A DNA stretch of 64,000 bases. Source: Nitrospirota bacterium (lineage in GTDB: Bacteria > Nitrospirota > Thermodesulfovibrionia > Thermodesulfovibrionales > Magnetobacteriaceae). The position numbers and the translations under genes are program-made. The notes below the pieces were generated by a model that did no database searches, was not told where the DNA came from, and saw only the letters and a list, made by a program, of their open reading frames with translations. Position 1 is the stretch's first letter; each line of letters opens with the position of its first letter. Positions 614 through 14,454 of the stretch are shown in pieces. The DNA lies in assembly GCA_015233895.1 (NCBI GenBank), contig JADFXG010000003.1, forward strand, positions 62,001 to 126,000. The letters run 5' to 3'.

Positions 614-3385
614 ATGGCATTTTCAAGGAGAGAGTTTATAAAAAGAGCTGCTGCCGTGTTTGCTGCAACAACATGTGGTATAGCAGTGCCGGCTGAGCTT
701 CTTGCTGAGGCAAAAAGCACGGAGGCTAAGTGGAAATGGGATAAAGCCGTGTGCCGCTTCTGTGGTACCGGATGCGGCATAATGGTAGCTGTAAGTAACG
801 ACAAGGTGGTAGCCGTCAAAGGTGATATCAATGCACCTGTTAACAAGGGATTAAACTGTATAAAGGGATACTTTAACGCAAAAATTATGTACGGAGCAGA
901 CAGGTTGTCGGAACCCCTTATGAGGATTAATGAAAAAGGACAGTTCGATAAAAAAGCCAATTTCAAACCGGTTACTTGGAAACGTGCCTTTGACGAAATG
1001 GAAACACAGTTTAAGAAGCACTACAACACGCTGGGGCCTGATGGTATCGCTATTTTTGGCTCCGGACAGTACACAATTATGGAGGGTGTGGCTGCGGTAA
1101 AACTGATTAAAGCAGGTTTCAGGAGTAATAACATAGACCCCAATGCACGCCACTGTATGGCATCAGCCGTGGTCGGCTTCATGCAGTCATTTGGAATTGA
1201 CGAACCTGCCGGTAACTACGACGACATGCACCACGCTGATTCCATAGTCCTGTGGGGGGCAAACATGGCAGAAATGCACCCAATTTTATGGTCTAAAATA
1301 ACCGATAGAAAATTAAGTGACAGAAAGAATATAAAGATTGTCAATCTCTCCACATATACAAACCGATGCTCAAATATTGCCGATCTGGAGATTATATTTA
1401 AGCCAAATACTGACCTTGCAATCTTAAACTATATAGCCAGAGAAATAGTGTACAACCACCCAGAGGCCATAGACCAGGAGTTTGTGAGTAATAACTGTGC
1501 TTTTGTAACCGGCCCGGTAGATATTGGCTATGGCATGAGAAACAACCCAAAGCATCCGTCGTTTGACCCTAAAGAGCAGGATACGGTTGCCAAAGAGGTA
1601 TCCAAAGTAATTTCCGAAAATGAGGCGACAGCGCTTTCTGCTCTTGGTATAAAAGCAGGGGACACGATGGAGATGAAAAACACAAACAACGCTATGAAGC
1701 ACTGGGTAATAAGTTTTGAGGATTTCAAAAAAGGCCTTGAACCATACACTCTCGACTATACGGCAAAACTTGCCAAGGGCAGGTCAGACGAATCACTGGA
1801 GGATTTTAAGAAAAAACTACAGGCATTGGTAAATATATATACGGAAAAAGGGGGAAAGGTCACAAGCTACTGGACGATGGGCTTTAACCAGCACATAAGG
1901 GGTTCATGGGTTAACGAGCAGATCTATACCGTACACCTGCTTTTAGGAAAGCAAGCGGCACCTGGTAACGGGGCATTTAGCCTTACCGGACAACCTAGCG
2001 CCTGCGGCACAGCCCGTGAGGTAGGCGTGTTCTGCCACAGGCTCCCTGCGGATATGGTTGTTGATAACCCAAAGCACAGGGAAAGAAGCGAAAAGCTTTG
2101 GAACATTCCCGATGGTACGCTTAATCCGGTAGTTGGATCACACTATACAAAAATAATGAGAGACCTCGAAGACGGTAAAATCAAATGGGCATGGGTTCAG
2201 GTAAATAACCCATGGCAAAATACCGCCAACGCAAACCACTGGATAAAGGCAGCCAGGGAGATGGATAACTTTATAGTGGTATCTGAGGCATATCCGGGCA
2301 TATCGGCAAAGGTTGCCGACCTGATACTGCCCAGTGCCATGATTTTTGAAAAGTGGGGAGCCTATGGAAATGCAGAAAGAAGAACTCAGCATTGGAAGCA
2401 GCAGGTAACCCCTTACGGCAAATCCATGTCCGACACGTGGCAGTTAGTTGAGTTTTCAAAGAGGTTTAAGCTTGAAGATGTATGGAAAGAGCATAAGATA
2501 AATAAAGATGTGACACTTCCCGACGTTCTCTCAAAGGCCGCTGAGATGGGTTACAAAAAAACCGCCACTCTGTATGATGTGTTGTTTGCAAATAAGAAAG
2601 CCAGGCAGTTTAAGTGGCCTGACCCAGTAGGGAGAAACACTCTAAACTCCGAGGCTGCCGGAGATAAGAGAAACGTGGAAAACTTCAAAGGTTACGGGTT
2701 TTTCCTGCAGAAATACCTCTGGGAGGAGTACAGGTCCTTTGGCATAGGAGAGGGGCATGATCTGGCGGATTTCGACACATACCACAGGGTAAGAGGGCTT
2801 AAGTGGCCTGTTGTGGATGGAAAGGAAACGCAATGGAGATTTAATTCCGAGTATGATCCGTATGCCAAAAAGGCAAACAAGGGTAAGTTTGTATTTTACG
2901 GTAAAGCCTTTAAAAGCCTGCCATCGGGAGACCTTAAAGATGTTACATCGAAAGAGATGGTGGATTTAACAAATAAGGCTAAAATCTTCTTACGGTACTA
3001 TATGGAGCCTCCGGAGATGCCCACTAAGGATTATCCTTTCTGGATGACCACAGGCAGAGTGCTTGAGCACTGGCACAGTGGAACCATGACCATGAGAGTA
3101 CCAGAGCTGTATCGCGCTGTGCCGGAGGCCCTTTGCTTTATACATCAAAATGATGCAAAAAAAGTTGGTGTAAAAGACGGGGAGCTTCTGTGGATTGAAT
3201 CCAGACGGGGCAAGGTTAAGGCACGGGTTGAAACCAGAGGCAGAAATAGTATGCCGGAGGGTATTGTGTTTGTGCCATGGTTTGACGAAAACGTGTTTAT
3301 AAATAAGGTAACACTGGATGCCACATGCCCGCTTTCTAAGCAAACCGATTTTAAAAAGTGTGCGGTTAAACTATATAAAGCGTAA
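614..3385 (+). CDS. napA: Periplasmic nitrate reductase catalytic subunit NapA
   Basis: NapA reduces nitrate to nitrite in the periplasm with a bis-MGD molybdenum centre and one 4Fe-4S cluster. The 923-residue product starts with a twin-arginine signal (SRREFIKR, residues 4-11) and a hydrophobic stretch, so it should be exported folded. The cluster is bound by Cys47, Cys50, Cys54 and Cys82. The Mo ligand is Cys181 in [10 protein letters not shown], diagnostic of NapA/Nas-type enzymes. Its length matches the 90-kDa NapA family. A strong ribosome site (aaggaggt, 600-607) precedes the ATG. It is the first gene of napA-G-H-B-D. Confidence 0.96.
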
Positions 3386-5813: not shown

Positions 5814-7124
5814 TTGGCAGATACGAAAATAGAAAAGCTGGGCAAGTATGAAGTAAAAGAGGAGATAGGGCGCGGCAGCATGGGCGTTGTCTATAGGGGG
5901 TTTGACCCGTTTTTAGACAGAGAGGTAGCCTTAAAAGTGGCTCTCTCTGATATGATGCAAGATAAGCACTTCTCACAAAGATACAGCAGGATGTTTTTTA
6001 ACGAGGCCAGAGTTGCCGGTATGCTTGACCACCCTAACATAGTACACGTTTATGATGCCGGAATGGAGGGCAGTTACAGCTACCTTGTCATGGAGTATAT
6101 AAAGAGTGGGAAAACCCTGCGGGATTTTTCCAGAGCGTCTAATCTTCTGCCTCAGGAAAAGGTACTTGCCATAATATTTAAGTGCTGTAAGGCTCTTGAC
6201 TACGCACACACGCTCGGTGTTATTCACAGAGACATAAAGCCAGGAAACATCATGCTTACAATGGACATGGAGGTTAAACTAGGGGATTTCAGCGTGGCTC
6301 AGATAGTTAAAGGCGATGAGACCCAGGTGGCAGGCTTTCTCGGCTCTCCGCTTTACATGTCCCCGGAGCAGGTTAAAGAAGAGGAGCTAACAAACCGCAC
6401 GGATTTATATTCGCTCGGAGTGGTCATGTTTGAGCTTTTAACCGGAACCCCTCCGTTTAGTGGCGAAAATGTATCGAGCCTCATTTATAAAATAATAACC
6501 GAGTCCCCTGTTAATATCAGACAGATTAAACCCGACATACCAGAAACAATTGAAAATATAATTAAAAAAGCGCTAAGCAGAAACCCTGACGACCGCTACC
6601 AAAGAGGACTTGACTTTGCCGCCGATATAAGCCATGCCTATAGAACCCTGAAACACTCCGGACAGGGAATCAAGGAGCAGGAGAAATTTGAAAAACTAAA
6701 GAAACTCGATTTCTTCAGGGATTTTTATAACTCCGAGCTGTGGGAGGTTATAAAGGCCTCCGACTGGGTGGAGTTTGACGAGGAGCAGCGGATAATAACC
6801 GAGGGGGAGATAGACGAATCTTTTTACATCTTAGTCACAGGCGAGGTGTATGTAAAGAAGGGGGATAATGTCTTAGTTAAGCTAAAACACGGGGACTGCT
6901 TTGGAGAGATGGGGTATTTGTCAAAATCCCGCAGAACCGCAGATATCATCTCCTTTACACAGGTGTCTTTGCTTAAGGTAAATGGCTCGTTGATTGATAA
7001 GGCATCGGTACACTGCCAACTGAGATTCAACAGGGTTTTTTTAAGGACACTGATAGAGCGCCTGGCAAGAACTAGCGAAAAACTCGCCAAAGACCGTCCG
7101 TCAAGCACATTAGATTCGCAGTAA
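5814..7124 (+). CDS. Ser/Thr protein kinase with C-terminal cyclic-nucleotide-binding domain
   Basis: Residues 12-275 form a Hanks-type kinase: glycine loop GRGSMG (19-24), catalytic lysine Lys41, HRDIKPGN (138-145, catalytic Asp140) and the APE-like SPEQ. The metal-binding DFG is DFS at 158-160, a change at the usually invariant glycine. Residues 305-400 form a cNMP-binding/Crp-like jelly roll (GEVYVKKG, GDCFGEMGYLS, RRTADI). There is no transmembrane helix, so the protein should be cytosolic. A kinase gated by a cyclic nucleotide is likely but inferred. It starts at TTG 11 bases after aggag. It lies 80 bp after napD, perhaps in its own unit. Confidence 0.88.
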   Translation: MADTKIEKLGKYEVKEEIGRGSMGVVYRGFDPFLDREVALKVALSDMMQDKHFSQRYSRMFFNEARVAGMLDHPNIVHVYDAGMEGSYSYLVMEYIKSGKTLRDFSRASNLLPQEKVLAIIFKCCKALDYAHTLGVIHRDIKPGNIMLTMDMEVKLGDFSVAQIVKGDETQVAGFLGSPLYMSPEQVKEEELTNRTDLYSLGVVMFELLTGTPPFSGENVSSLIYKIITESPVNIRQIKPDIPETIENIIKKALSRNPDDRYQRGLDFAADISHAYRTLKHSGQGIKEQEKFEKLKKLDFFRDFYNSELWEVIKASDWVEFDEEQRIITEGEIDESFYILVTGEVYVKKGDNVLVKLKHGDCFGEMGYLSKSRRTADIISFTQVSLLKVNGSLIDKASVHCQLRFNRVFLRTLIERLARTSEKLAKDRPSSTLDSQ

Positions 7125-7204: not shown

Positions 7205-7411
7205 ATGAGCGACCAACTAAAAGACATAGAGATGCTCTATCGCACTGCCTTTGAAAAATATGGAGCTATTGCCCTGTGGAGCAGCCGCCCCGTGCCAAAT
7301 CCAACCCGTGCCGATGCAATGGCTATTACTCGGGCTCTCAGGACGCATGGCGGTATGAACGGGCGGAGGCTTGCCGAACAAATTGAAGAGGCCTGCAGTG
7401 CCACTCACTAA
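7205..7411 (+). CDS. Small hypothetical protein, possible partner of the AbiEii-like gene
   Basis: This 68-residue ORF starts with ATG and overlaps the next gene. It is hydrophilic and has no recognised motif. The central WSSRPVPNPTRADAMAITRAL segment followed by GGMNGRRLAEQIEEAC suggests a short helical, possibly DNA-binding or antitoxin-like protein. AbiEii-type nucleotidyltransferases are usually encoded just after a small regulator, and that context is the only support for a toxin-antitoxin role. G+C is higher than in the preceding kinase gene. Function unknown. Confidence 0.55.
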   Translation: MSDQLKDIEMLYRTAFEKYGAIALWSSRPVPNPTRADAMAITRALRTHGGMNGRRLAEQIEEACSATH

Positions 7412-8219
7412 GTTGCAATCCCACGTCCTGCGGATATTGGCGATGCAGCGCAGTCCGGATAGTTATATTGCTGGGGGCATTGCTCTTAACCGTGAGGGCC
7501 CTCGATTTTCAAATGATATAGATATTTTTCAGGACTCCGAGGATCGTCTTGAAACGGCTGCCGAGGCAGATGTTGCTGCCCTTAGTAAGGCAGGCCTTAC
7601 GCTGAGCACCCTGAAAATCAGAACAGGCAAGCGCGAAGTCCTCGTTGAAGGGCTAAACGAAAAGATGATGCTTGAGTGGGTGGCAGATAGTGATTTCCGT
7701 TTCTTCCCTACACAGACAGATGAACTTTTCGGATATGTACTTCATCCGGTTGACCTAGCAACGAACAAAGCATCTGCGGCAGCAGACAGGCGTGTCCCGC
7801 GCGACGTGGTTGACCTTGTTACGATACATGAAACCATACTGCCGCTTGGAGCTGTAATAAGTGCAGCAGTTGGAAAATTCCCGGGCATGACTCCTGAGGA
7901 GATGCTTTCAGAAATCACAAGCCACAGCCGTTTTACGGCTGAAGAGTTCCGCGTATTGGCAATGGAACGGCCAATTGATGTCCCTGGCCTGCACAAACGA
8001 ATCCGACGTATGTTAGAGGATGCAGAGGAGTTTATCAGCGCTTTGCCAAGTTCTGACGTTGGCGTGGTTTTTCTTGACGGCGACAGAGCGGTACAACCTG
8101 ATTTGAACGCATTGAGCCGTTATCAACGCAACGCCGGAGCGCGTCGGGGAGTGTGGCCTTCAAGTCCTGACATCTTAACTGCTATGCTGGAAAAGTACAA
8201 TCTGCCAAAGCCGCTATAA
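7398..8219 (+). CDS. Nucleotidyltransferase, AbiEii/AbiGii toxin-like family
   Basis: The N-terminal half carries the minimal nucleotidyltransferase signature of the AbiEii family: YIAGGIALNREG followed by RFSNDIDIF, the glycine motif and Asp-x-Asp metal site. The C-terminal half is helical. Family members are type IV toxins or tRNA-modifying MenT-like enzymes. The frame is open from a TTG at 7371, but the GTG at 7398 has gaagagg 6 bases upstream and begins closer to the domain, so it is preferred. It overlaps the small ORF before it. The locally higher G+C suggests recent acquisition. Whether it is toxic is not known. Confidence 0.75.
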   Translation: MPLTKLQSHVLRILAMQRSPDSYIAGGIALNREGPRFSNDIDIFQDSEDRLETAAEADVAALSKAGLTLSTLKIRTGKREVLVEGLNEKMMLEWVADSDFRFFPTQTDELFGYVLHPVDLATNKASAAADRRVPRDVVDLVTIHETILPLGAVISAAVGKFPGMTPEEMLSEITSHSRFTAEEFRVLAMERPIDVPGLHKRIRRMLEDAEEFISALPSSDVGVVFLDGDRAVQPDLNALSRYQRNAGARRGVWPSSPDILTAMLEKYNLPKPL

Positions 8220-8243: not shown

Positions 8244-9140
8244 CTACTGTCTTATCACCTCAACCCCACGTTTTTTAAGCAGATTAACCAGACCATTGTC
8301 TCCGATTAGATGTCCTGTGCCGACAACGACAAGGTAGTTTTCCGTTCCTTGCAGGAAATTTTCTATCTGTGGCAGCCAGTTCCTATTTCTGTCAATGATG
8401 AGTTTTTTATAAAGCTCCGGATAATCCTTAAAACTACTTAAGAGGACATCTTTAAGTGTGTCGTCATCTCCTGTAAGCCATGAGTTAACGACAGTGGAGG
8501 CTTCTTTTTCTGTCATTTCTATCTCTTTAATCGTTTGAAGGAGCAGCATCTCCTGCGTTTTTTCAGGTAAAGTGTTAAAAAGACCCAATTGATACTCTGC
8601 TGTTTCAAGCTGCATTATCTTTTTACCCTCAGCCCTGCTGCGCATCATAAAGTAGTTATCCACCCCATATTCCGGAGAAAAACCATAGCTTTGTAGTTTG
8701 ACGCTATAAATCATCAGCGCTAAAAACCATGGCTTTGCAGTATTATACTTAGCAATATCAAGCCCTGATGACTCCACTTGCGCTTTGGCAATTTTGTAAG
8801 CTCCCGTTGATAAAACACCTTTAAGAGTTTTGCCGTTATGGTAAAACCCCTGCTGTTTTGTCAGAGACGCTATCCTCTGTCCCTGACCGCTGGCGCCAGT
8901 GTCAGCCTCTACAACAAGGATTTTGGAATCATTATAAGCATTTTCATAGGGCTTGCCAAGCGGATAGTTCTCTACCTTTAAGAAATGGATAGAACCCAGT
9001 AAATACACCGTGTTGGTTTTCGACTTTACTTTCCACAAACAGTTTTTGTCGCTAACGTGTGACGGCTCTTCTGAGTTTGCTCCCTGAGCCAAAAATATAA
9101 AAAAAACAATTAACCACAAACTATGCCACTGTTTTCTCAT
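8244..9140 (-). CDS. TraB/GumN family protein, exported
   Basis: The 298-residue protein starts with a hydrophobic signal sequence ending near residue 22 and continues with the TraB/GumN core: CLWKVKSKTNTVYLLGSIHFLK near the start of the mature protein and VVVGTGHLIGDNGLVNLLKKRG near the C-terminus. The GSIH and GTGH histidines are the conserved residues of this fold (related to TIKI/PrgY proteases). Its substrate is unknown. It is the last gene of the minus-strand run HD-GYP, DsrE-like, selD, traB, lying 19 bp after selD. Confidence 0.82.
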   Translation of the reverse strand: MRKQWHSLWLIVFFIFLAQGANSEEPSHVSDKNCLWKVKSKTNTVYLLGSIHFLKVENYPLGKPYENAYNDSKILVVEADTGASGQGQRIASLTKQQGFYHNGKTLKGVLSTGAYKIAKAQVESSGLDIAKYNTAKPWFLALMIYSVKLQSYGFSPEYGVDNYFMMRSRAEGKKIMQLETAEYQLGLFNTLPEKTQEMLLLQTIKEIEMTEKEASTVVNSWLTGDDDTLKDVLLSSFKDYPELYKKLIIDRNRNWLPQIENFLQGTENYLVVVGTGHLIGDNGLVNLLKKRGVEVIRQ

Positions 9141-9159: not shown

Positions 9160-10182
9160 TTAATTGATTTTTAGAATTCCGGTGCCCTTAGTAACATATC
9201 CTATGGTTTTATAAAACACGCCAGAGTTTTCAAAGGCATTCATGTTGTGTTTTCCGATAGTGATGAGAAGTCCTCCGGAGGTCTGAGGATCGGAAAAAAT
9301 GTATTTTAAATGCTCAGGAATGGATTCACTAAATTGCACCCTGTTTGAAAAAAAGTTAAGATTCTTTTTTGCTCCGCCCGGGAAAATCCCCTCCTTTGCC
9401 AGTTCTACTGCGGTATCCATTACAGGCACACAGCCGGAATCTATGACAAAGTTAACGGCAGCCTCCTTTAACATGTTGCAGGCATGGCCTGTAAAGCCAA
9501 AACCGGTAACATCCGTGCATGAAGTAGCATCCGCATTAAGGGCAGCCACGGAGGCGGCACAATTCAGAGTCAGCATCCACTTTACTGCCTCCTCTATTTG
9601 TGTGTTGTTAAGCAGCTTTCGTTTCAGAGCAGTAGTTATAATTCCAATGCCAAGGGGTTTTGTTAATACAATGATGTCACCCTCTTTTGCTCCTGATTTC
9701 AAAAGGATTTTGTTTTTATCTACAGTGCCCGTTACGGAAAGTCCAAACTTTAACTCCGTATCCTCGAGACTGTGGCCGCCTAAGAGTGCAACCCCTGCTG
9801 TATTAAGCACACTTTGGGCTCCGCGCAGAACCTCCTTTAACACGTCAGTTTTGTAATCGCACAGAGGGAACGCGGCCACTGCCAACGCAGTTATAGGAGT
9901 GCCGCCCATGGAGTAAACATCGCTTAACGAATTAGTGGCGCTCACTGCTCCAAACGTGTAGGGATCATTTACCGGAGGTGTTATAAAATCCACCGTCTCA
10001 ACAAAAGCCGTATCTCCGATAAGATACACTCCGGCATCATCACCGGGGCCTACCAGCACCTTAACGCGCAAGCCGCTCTGGAGGCTGTCTCCCAGTGAGC
10101 CTATCAAATCCTCCAGGTCCGCCGGACCCAGCTTTGACACTCACCCGGCTGCTCTAACTTTTTCCGTTAACTTGTAGTCCAT
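9160..10182 (-). CDS. selD: Selenide, water dikinase SelD with selenocysteine at residue 14 (in-frame UGA)
   Basis: SelD makes selenophosphate from selenide and ATP, for Sec-tRNA and selenouridine. A frame read only from the GTG at 10140 lacks the active-site N-terminus. Upstream, without any shift, ATG at 10182 encodes MDYKLTEKVRAAG, then TGA (10143-10141), then VSKLGPADLEDL. That is the SelD active site with Sec in place of Cys and the catalytic lysine at SKL. A GC-rich hairpin with paired ggtcc/ggacc arms lies about 12-27 bases after the UGA, where a bacterial SECIS element is expected. Later motifs include GPGDDAGVY, GGHSLED and SDPQTSGGLL. The product is 340 residues, and the purine-rich agagag precedes the ATG. 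Confidence 0.93.
10130..10143 (-). promoter_or_regulatory. UGA-Sec codon and start of candidate SECIS hairpin in selD
   Basis: The in-frame TGA of selD lies at 10143-10141 on the minus strand. The hairpin that follows has arms ggtcc and ggacc with a GGC loop, spanning about 10128-10114. Distance and size are as expected for a bacterial SECIS that recruits SelB. No folding program was run. Confidence 0.6.
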
Positions 10183-10231
10183 TTTTCTCTCTTTTGGTTT
10201 ATCAAGTTACACTTTAGCTGTGAGAAAATTT

Positions 10232-10615
10232 CTAAAATGTAAGCCCCTGTCTGATAAGAAGCATCTCTCCCAGAAAACTCCCCGGTCGAATTTCGCTGTT
10301 TTTAATGAGTTGCGCCTTATCCAGTTCATAGTGCTTAACACATGAGGCACAAATGTAAAACTTTGCGTCAAAATCATCTGTCAGAGTTTTTATCAGGTCT
10401 GAAATTAGCGAAAACTGATCTTTGTGCTGCCAGATAAGTGTCTCGGCAAATCCCTCTTTTGCCAAAAGCACCGCTTTATCCATCAAAAAAAAATCTACCA
10501 CCGTACCGTAAGCTCTCATATTGACAGCAAGTTGAAACGCCCCCGCTACCGCATCCACACTGTCGTGGGAGTGGGTCATTATAAATACAAACTTCTTATC
10601 TGCATTTTCACTCAA
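10232..10615 (-). CDS. DsrE-like sulfur-relay family protein, next to selD
   Basis: The protein of about 127 residues has the DsrE/DsrF fold pattern: FVFIMTHSHDSVDAVAGAFQLA, then a central AVLLAKEGFAET, then FYICASCVKHYEL with a cysteine pair, then GSFLGEMLLIRQG. DsrE-fold proteins carry sulfur on a cysteine. In many Sec users a TusA-DsrE protein (YedF) is encoded with selD. This one has only the DsrE part. A GTG at 10624 is in frame but abuts its own ribosome site; TTG at 10615 is 7 bases after ggaggt and is chosen. A role in selenium handling is inferred from position only. Confidence 0.75.
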   Translation of the reverse strand: MSENADKKFVFIMTHSHDSVDAVAGAFQLAVNMRAYGTVVDFFLMDKAVLLAKEGFAETLIWQHKDQFSLISDLIKTLTDDFDAKFYICASCVKHYELDKAQLIKNSEIRPGSFLGEMLLIRQGLTF

Positions 10616-10721
10616 GGCAACCACCTCCGCTCTTATGATTTTACATAGCTTAGTTATTGTGCATCTTTACGAGGAAAATTTTCAAGCAGATTTGAGTGCC
10701 TTTAGTGGTTAATTCCCTGCA

Positions 10722-12907: not shown

Positions 12908-13855
12908 ATGCTTATAAAAAAAGCGGATGATATAAAGAGTTCTGAAATCACAGATGAGTCTTTGTACCTAAAACGGAGAAGTTTCCTTGTGACGGCCTTT
13001 AAGGCCTTAGCATTTGTCCTTGTGCCGTCTGTGGGTTTTTCAGAAGAGCTGCCTCAGGGAAAAAAGTTATCATTTACTCCTGATAAGAGTTACACAGTAG
13101 AGGATGACAAGACATCCTATGATAAAGCAGTAAGCTACAATAACTTTTACGAGTTTTCACTTAATAAAGAAGATGTTAAAGACTTAAGCCGCAACTTTAA
13201 GGTGCGCCCATGGACAGTAACCGTTGACGGATTAGTAAAAAAACCAACCGTCTATGACATTGACCACCTCATTAAAACATTTCCTCAAACTGAACGTACT
13301 TACCGTCACCGATGCGTTGAGGGCTGGTCTATGGTAATTCCATGGATAGGGTTTCAGCTATCTGACCTTATTAAGCAAGTGGAACCTGATTCCCGCGCAA
13401 GGTACGTTAAGTTTACATCACTTTATAACCCTGAGGTTATGATTGGCCAAAAAACGGGTACATTAAACTGGCCATATGTGGAGGGGCTGAGGCTTGATGA
13501 GGCTTTAAACCCTCTCACTCTTTTGGCAGTAGGGATGTATGGCCATGAAATGCCAAATCAAAACGGTGCACCGCTTAGGCTTGTAGTTCCGTGGAAATAT
13601 GGATTTAAAGGTATTAAGTCAATAGTAAGGATTACTTTTACCGATACTATGCCTGTAACCTCATGGAATTTAGCAGGCCCAACTGAATATGGTTTCTATG
13701 CCAATGTTAATCCCAATGTTGATCATCCACGGTGGAGCCAGGGGACAGAAAGAAGGATTGGTAATTTTTTCAGACAAAAAACCTTGCTTTTTAACGGTTA
13801 TCAGAAAGAGGTGGCAAGTCTTTATACCGGTATGGATTTAACTAAAAATTTTTGA
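12908..13855 (+). CDS. msrP: Protein-methionine-sulfoxide reductase catalytic subunit MsrP
   Basis: MsrP (YedY) is a periplasmic mono-MPT molybdoenzyme that repairs oxidised methionines in envelope proteins. The 315-residue product has a Tat-type signal ([15 protein letters not shown], about residues 21-35). The sulfite-oxidase-fold core has the Mo-ligating Cys136 in [11 protein letters not shown] and [11 protein letters not shown], as well as [18 protein letters not shown] near the C-terminus. The stop codon overlaps the start of msrQ, which indicates tight coupling. Confidence 0.95.
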
Positions 13856-14454
13856 GTAGCGAGGATAAAAGCCCTGGCGAAAGAGTCCATGTTTTAAGGG
13901 CTCTTATATTTATTCTTTGCCTGGGTCCGTTGCTATACTTAATACTCTTAGCGCTGACTGGTTCACTTGGGGCTAATCCAATTGAAAAACTTATCCGCAT
14001 TACAGGAACCTTCACTTACCACTTTATCATACTGACACTTGCCGTAACTCCGGTCTATGACATCTTGAAAATAAATCACGTACAGCGATATAAAAAGACA
14101 TTCGGGTTGTTTAGTTTTTTTTATGCGTCGCTTCATTTTATGCTATATGCCGGTGTCGATCATTTTTTTAATTTTATGGAAATATTTGAAGACATGATAA
14201 AACACAAAAGAATATATGCAGGGGTTGGGGCTTATTTAATTATGATTCCACTGGCTGTGACCTCAACACGTTGGGCTAAGAGAACTCTTGGCGGCAGGAG
14301 ATGGAGGGGGTTGCACAGACTATTTTATCTCAGTGCCATTGCCGCCGCCGCACACTACCTGCTGGTTGTTAAAAGAGATCTGAGAGAGCCTGTAATATAT
14401 TTTACAGTTGTGCTCCTGTTGTTATTATACCGCTTGAGGCACATAAAGGCATGA
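13852..14454 (+). CDS. msrQ: Haem-binding membrane subunit MsrQ
   Basis: MsrQ (YedZ) is the six-helix b-haem membrane protein that gives electrons to MsrP. The 200-residue product has about six hydrophobic segments and conserved histidines in [27 protein letters not shown]-type context, [15 protein letters not shown] and [10 protein letters not shown]. It starts at TTG 13852, overlapping the msrP stop by 4 bases. Its 3' end overlaps the next gene in ATGA. The usual source of electrons is the quinone pool or a flavin reductase. Confidence 0.93.

Follow-up and report, generated by a model that had tools for sequence, protein, structure and literature searches.

Among prokaryotic selenoprotein families, Sec-type SelD ranks second in breadth of distribution, and it has been recognized for some twenty years. 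Because a SelD of this type can be made only with selenocysteine (Sec), the pathway depends on itself, a property inherent to the type and not special to the genome described here. Three publications report Sec-containing SelD (TIGR00476) in many bacteria (PMC1794560, PMC9312934, PMC13188914). We analyzed a selD gene in a window of 64,000 nucleotides from an uncultured member of the Nitrospirota. It resembles known Sec-SelD genes over the whole protein, in the UGA at the active-site Cys position, in the Lys at +3, in the hairpin just past the UGA, in the presence of selA, selB and selC in the genome, and in having formate dehydrogenase alpha (FdhA) as a companion selenoprotein. Nothing essential differs; what is particular is the host, a relative of Candidatus Magnetominusculus, and an N-terminus of 13 residues ahead of Sec. 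The locus is thus a well-supported further example of a long-known bacterial selenoprotein type, and the gene almost certainly encodes a selenophosphate synthetase that is itself a selenoprotein, Sec insertion and catalysis being assigned by analogy with the family.

The coding features, in window coordinates, are:

9160–10182, minus strand: selD, full selenoprotein frame, 340 aa, ATG start, TAA stop, Sec predicted at codon 14
10141–10143, minus strand: in-frame UGA, almost certainly read as Sec, at the active-site position (Cys in 2yye)
10132–10134, minus strand: AAG codon of the catalytic lysine K17, three residues past Sec; also K in 2yye

The frame is directly observed: it opens with the ATG at 10182–10180, the TAA ends at 9160, and the TGA at codon 14 is the sole interruption, with no frameshift and no second stop. 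At this locus the mechanical ORF list contains only a 326-aa frame from GTG 10140 to 9160, whose first codon (10140–10138) directly follows the TGA. The initial annotation had recognized that this visible frame lacks the N-terminal active site and that it extends through the TGA to ATG 10182 without a frameshift, and both points stand. Automated gene calls would indeed miss the N-terminus, but the missing part is 14 codons long, ending with the Sec codon, and not the 15 codons that the annotation had given. The gene start is corrected here, the visible ORF being without the active site.

Read through the TGA, the N-terminus is MDYKLTEKVRAAG-U-VSKLGPADL, which places U14 and K17. The SelD profile TIGR00476 matched residues 4–311 (profile positions 1–308 of 311) with 321.8 bits, against a cut-off of 125. 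The closest solved structure is Aquifex SelD (2yye, E = 2.5e-78); the alignment starts at residue 5 and runs across the UGA, which falls on the Cys of 2yye, with Lys at +3 in both proteins. This agrees with the active site proposed earlier, Sec in the Cys position and the lysine three residues on. The translation also contains the glycine-rich N-terminal ATP-binding segment GPGDDAG. Since the profile match begins upstream of the TGA, and since the peptide before the TGA is kept in dozens of genomes, the SelD frame is far beyond chance. By sequence, the gene is identified as SelD, selenide, water dikinase.

The Cys-type SelD proteins, represented by 2yye and by five genomes of the phylum, belong to the same family, align over nearly the full length and have Cys at the UGA position. 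They differ in having a Cys codon where the Sec genes have UGA; among 148 sampled genomes of the phylum, five full-length SelD genes from other families read TGC at the site. These five genes have TRKDL or GRExL, whereas the Sec genes nearest the window's own have GPxDL, and the five are without the GGTCC...GGACC hairpin sequence.

The source genome (3.71 Mb, 65 contigs, listed as 100% complete) was found to contain a tRNA-Sec with anticodon UCA (C31:5425–5518, 70.7 bits), SelA (C2:105551–106906, 605 bits) and SelB (C25:4216–6057, 362.5 bits). The Sec-decoding trait (selA, selB, selC, selD) is therefore complete in this genome, as the initial annotation had predicted; it had counted absence of selB or selC against its reading, and both are present. 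A second selenoprotein gene encodes FdhA (861.6 bits), with one in-frame TGA (...DHCARF-U-HSPTV...). TGA-containing FdhA is also found in two relatives (G001 and G002). Further selenoproteins were looked for by named families: FlpD/MvhD and DsrE families are present and have no in-frame TGA inside the match, and SelU/YbbB (TIGR03167), the selenouridine trait, gave no match in the genome at E ≤ 0.001. Another relative, G010, has FdhA matches without TGA, and searches of its genome for SelD, SelB and tRNA-Sec found none of them. The window itself holds, at about 749–3370 on the plus strand, a second formate-dehydrogenase-like molybdoenzyme, a 949-aa frame with no internal stop that TIGR01591 matches in pieces.

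A further feature lies just past the UGA:

10113–10131, minus strand: SECIS-type hairpin CUGGGUCC-GGC-GGACCUGG, 8 bp, 3-nt loop starting GG and lying 17 nt past the UGA

The initial annotation had placed a hairpin at bases 12–27 after the UGA; a hairpin is present, and its position, close to that estimate, is 13–31 counted from the T of TGA. The published bacterial SECIS model calls for a loop of 3–9 nt with G in its first two positions, an upper stem of 4–16 bp, a distance of 16–37 nt from UGA to loop, and a minimum free energy of at most −7.5 kcal/mol (PMC13188914). When the sequence after the TGA was folded, as the annotation had suggested, the window hairpin fell within this model, with its GGC loop, 8-bp upper stem, 17-nt distance and, with the lower pairs included, −11.4 kcal/mol. 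Against shuffled sequence it gave z = −1.2 to −1.7 for segments of 46–59 nt, matched in stability by 12 to 29 shuffles out of 200, and the 84-nt segment gave z = +0.2. Taken alone, the window hairpin is thus not clearly more stable than shuffles, and the case at the RNA level rests on comparison.

The hairpin also encodes the conserved G-P-x-D-L, so that any comparative test must use synonymous choices. Seventy-four distinct Sec genes entered the codon and folding tests. Of 72 genes, 65 have T as the third base of the Gly/Ser codon, where the genes' own codon usage predicts 18.4, and 63 of 65 encode Asp by GAC (32.2 expected on the same basis), although the P values for these biases treat related genes as independent and overstate the significance. 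The biased Gly/Ser third bases and the bases of the Asp GAC pair in the hairpin stem. Compared with synonymous recodings, codons +1 to +14 fold with a mean z of −1.57 (sem 0.11, 74 genes), and ten further windows in the same test gave z between −0.42 and +0.18. Only within the 14 codons that follow the UGA does folding thus exceed that of synonymous recodings; this constraint at the RNA level is directly observed, and its confinement to the predicted place is independent of gene relatedness. By our script, 28 of the 74 genes yielded no hairpin under the strict SECIS constraints, which the window passes; published work notes a similar shortfall for some known genes (PMC9312934).

Two N-terminal types of Sec-SelD were seen in the family, LTEKVRAAG-U and LT/MGLSRTCG-U (the latter in G007 and G009, loci L034 and L047, which stand apart from most of the family). 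In the second type the hairpin is shifted, with the loop 21 nt past the UGA in L047. The occurrence of both types in one bacterial family suggests horizontal transfer or old paralogues.

These observations bear on whether the UGA could be read otherwise, by near-cognate readthrough or under a reassigned code, as Trp or Cys. We consider this very unlikely: the genome has a tRNA-Sec with the UCA anticodon together with SelA and SelB, the sole in-frame TGA within SelD and within the best FdhA match is the Sec site, and the hairpin codons past the UGA are constrained. Decoding as Sec is almost certain on these sequence grounds.

Conservation of the codon was surveyed in 60 genomes (the window's own and relatives), 52 of which had a SelD match above cut-off. 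TGA occupies the Sec site in all 52, spanning 13 families of the order sampled. In 51 a single TGA was reported inside the match; in G006 it was read from the upstream frame. A G006 SelD without UGA was considered and rejected, because the profile match sets in only past the site, and the frame, followed upstream, reads AKAAG-U-GSKLGPADL. A long-frame SelD in G011 was likewise rejected as a fusion, the frame running into a stretch of N. Lys at +3 accompanies every Sec site listed, but K belonged to that search pattern. The peptide ahead of the UGA was compared among 26 distinct Sec genes of the type nearest to that of the window: 25 have Met at −13, and all 26 share Leu −9, Glu −7, Ala −3 and Gly −1, so that conservation of both the UGA and its upstream peptide is a direct observation. 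The nearest named loci are those of a Nitrospirae MAG (L074, 96% identity over the matched part) and of Candidatus Magnetominusculus (L076, 59%).

If the TGA were a true stop, or unused, a truncated SelD-like protein without the active-site residue would be made from GTG 10140, which is exactly the ORF that the mechanical list offers. We regard this as extremely improbable. The peptide before the TGA, with its Met at a fixed place, is conserved and is matched by the SelD model; GTG after the UGA is limited to the nearer relatives of the window, mostly giving way to GCN elsewhere, so that a GTG start is not conserved there; and no ribosome-binding site lies at usable spacing before GTG 10140. 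That the TGA is a sequencing or assembly error or marks a pseudogene, the codon really being Cys (TGC/TGT), has a negligible probability, since, despite an assembly in 65 contigs, the rest of the selD frame is intact and the same codon is TGA in independent genomes, 52 of 52 with SelD, among them G001, which belongs to the same genus and is assembled as a single contig; this also answers the initial annotation's own reservation about sequencing error.

Some relatives have unusual selenium gene sets. In G037 and G057 (98–99% complete), SelB and TGA-containing FdhA are present and SelD was not found; G037 also gave no tRNA-Sec at E = 1e-9. Gaps in the assemblies, or else a selenium donor of another kind, would account for the missing SelD. 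Two tRNA-Sec genes each were found in G048 (C1:231988 and C16:80860) and G057. The latter has two SelB genes, one of them about 50 nt from a tRNA-Sec on the same strand (G057 tRNA-Sec/SelB loci, C20:13633–15631 and C41:13858–13951). No SelB was found in G048 at E = 1e-75, though its SelD is Sec-type. Four genomes (G063, G064, G082 and G163) have two SelD genes each, all with an in-frame TGA.

The immediate surroundings of selD comprise:

10183–10200, minus strand: leader before the ATG, AAACCAAAAGAGAGAAAA, purine-rich, a possible weak ribosome-binding site judged from the letters alone
10232–10624, minus strand: DsrE/DsrF-like gene, 49 nt upstream of selD (PF02635, 40 bits)
8244–9140, minus strand: TraB/PrgY/GumN family gene, 19 nt downstream of selD (PF01963, 223.8 bits)

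Both neighbors are possibly cotranscribed with selD. The C-terminal peptide of the same DsrE/DsrF-like gene also stands ahead of selD in L074 and in L066, a locus from the same genus. Elsewhere in the window, on the plus strand, are MsrP and MsrQ, a methionine sulfoxide reductase pair (12908–14454), of which MsrQ also matches the C-terminal portion of the magnetosome protein MamZ at 135 bits, below the model cut-off; a Ser/Thr protein kinase (5814–7124) with an apparent C-terminal cyclic-nucleotide-binding domain (weak CRP match); and an AbiEii-type nucleotidyltransferase-like protein (7371–8219; PF08843, 31.6 bits).

In the mechanism that we propose, translation would begin at ATG 10182. At the UGA of codon 14 the ribosome would insert Sec, as in the family, brought by SelB-GTP with Sec-tRNA-Sec; SelB would bind the hairpin starting about 10 nt after the UGA, which would position the insertion. 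Sec would then take the place that Cys has elsewhere in the SelD family, three residues ahead of the catalytic Lys. By family analogy, SelD would convert selenide and ATP to selenophosphate, and SelA would use this to convert Ser-tRNA-Sec to Sec-tRNA-Sec. The product would supply at least SelD itself and FdhA.

Among the literature matches listed for selenoproteins in Nitrospirota or magnetotactic bacteria (ten of 43), none mentions selenoproteins, and the present order-wide survey may be unpublished, though its outcome is unsurprising. We think it doubtful that the order's selenium activation rests on Sec-type SelD alone, made only via its own product, with some relatives perhaps using another selenophosphate source; the latter idea arises from the two genomes that have SelB and an FdhA gene with TGA yet yielded no SelD. 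The findings point to an uncultured Nitrospirota lineage equipped to insert selenocysteine at UGA and to employ selenium in its formate metabolism, and they add an order-wide example of a SelD that requires its own product to be made.
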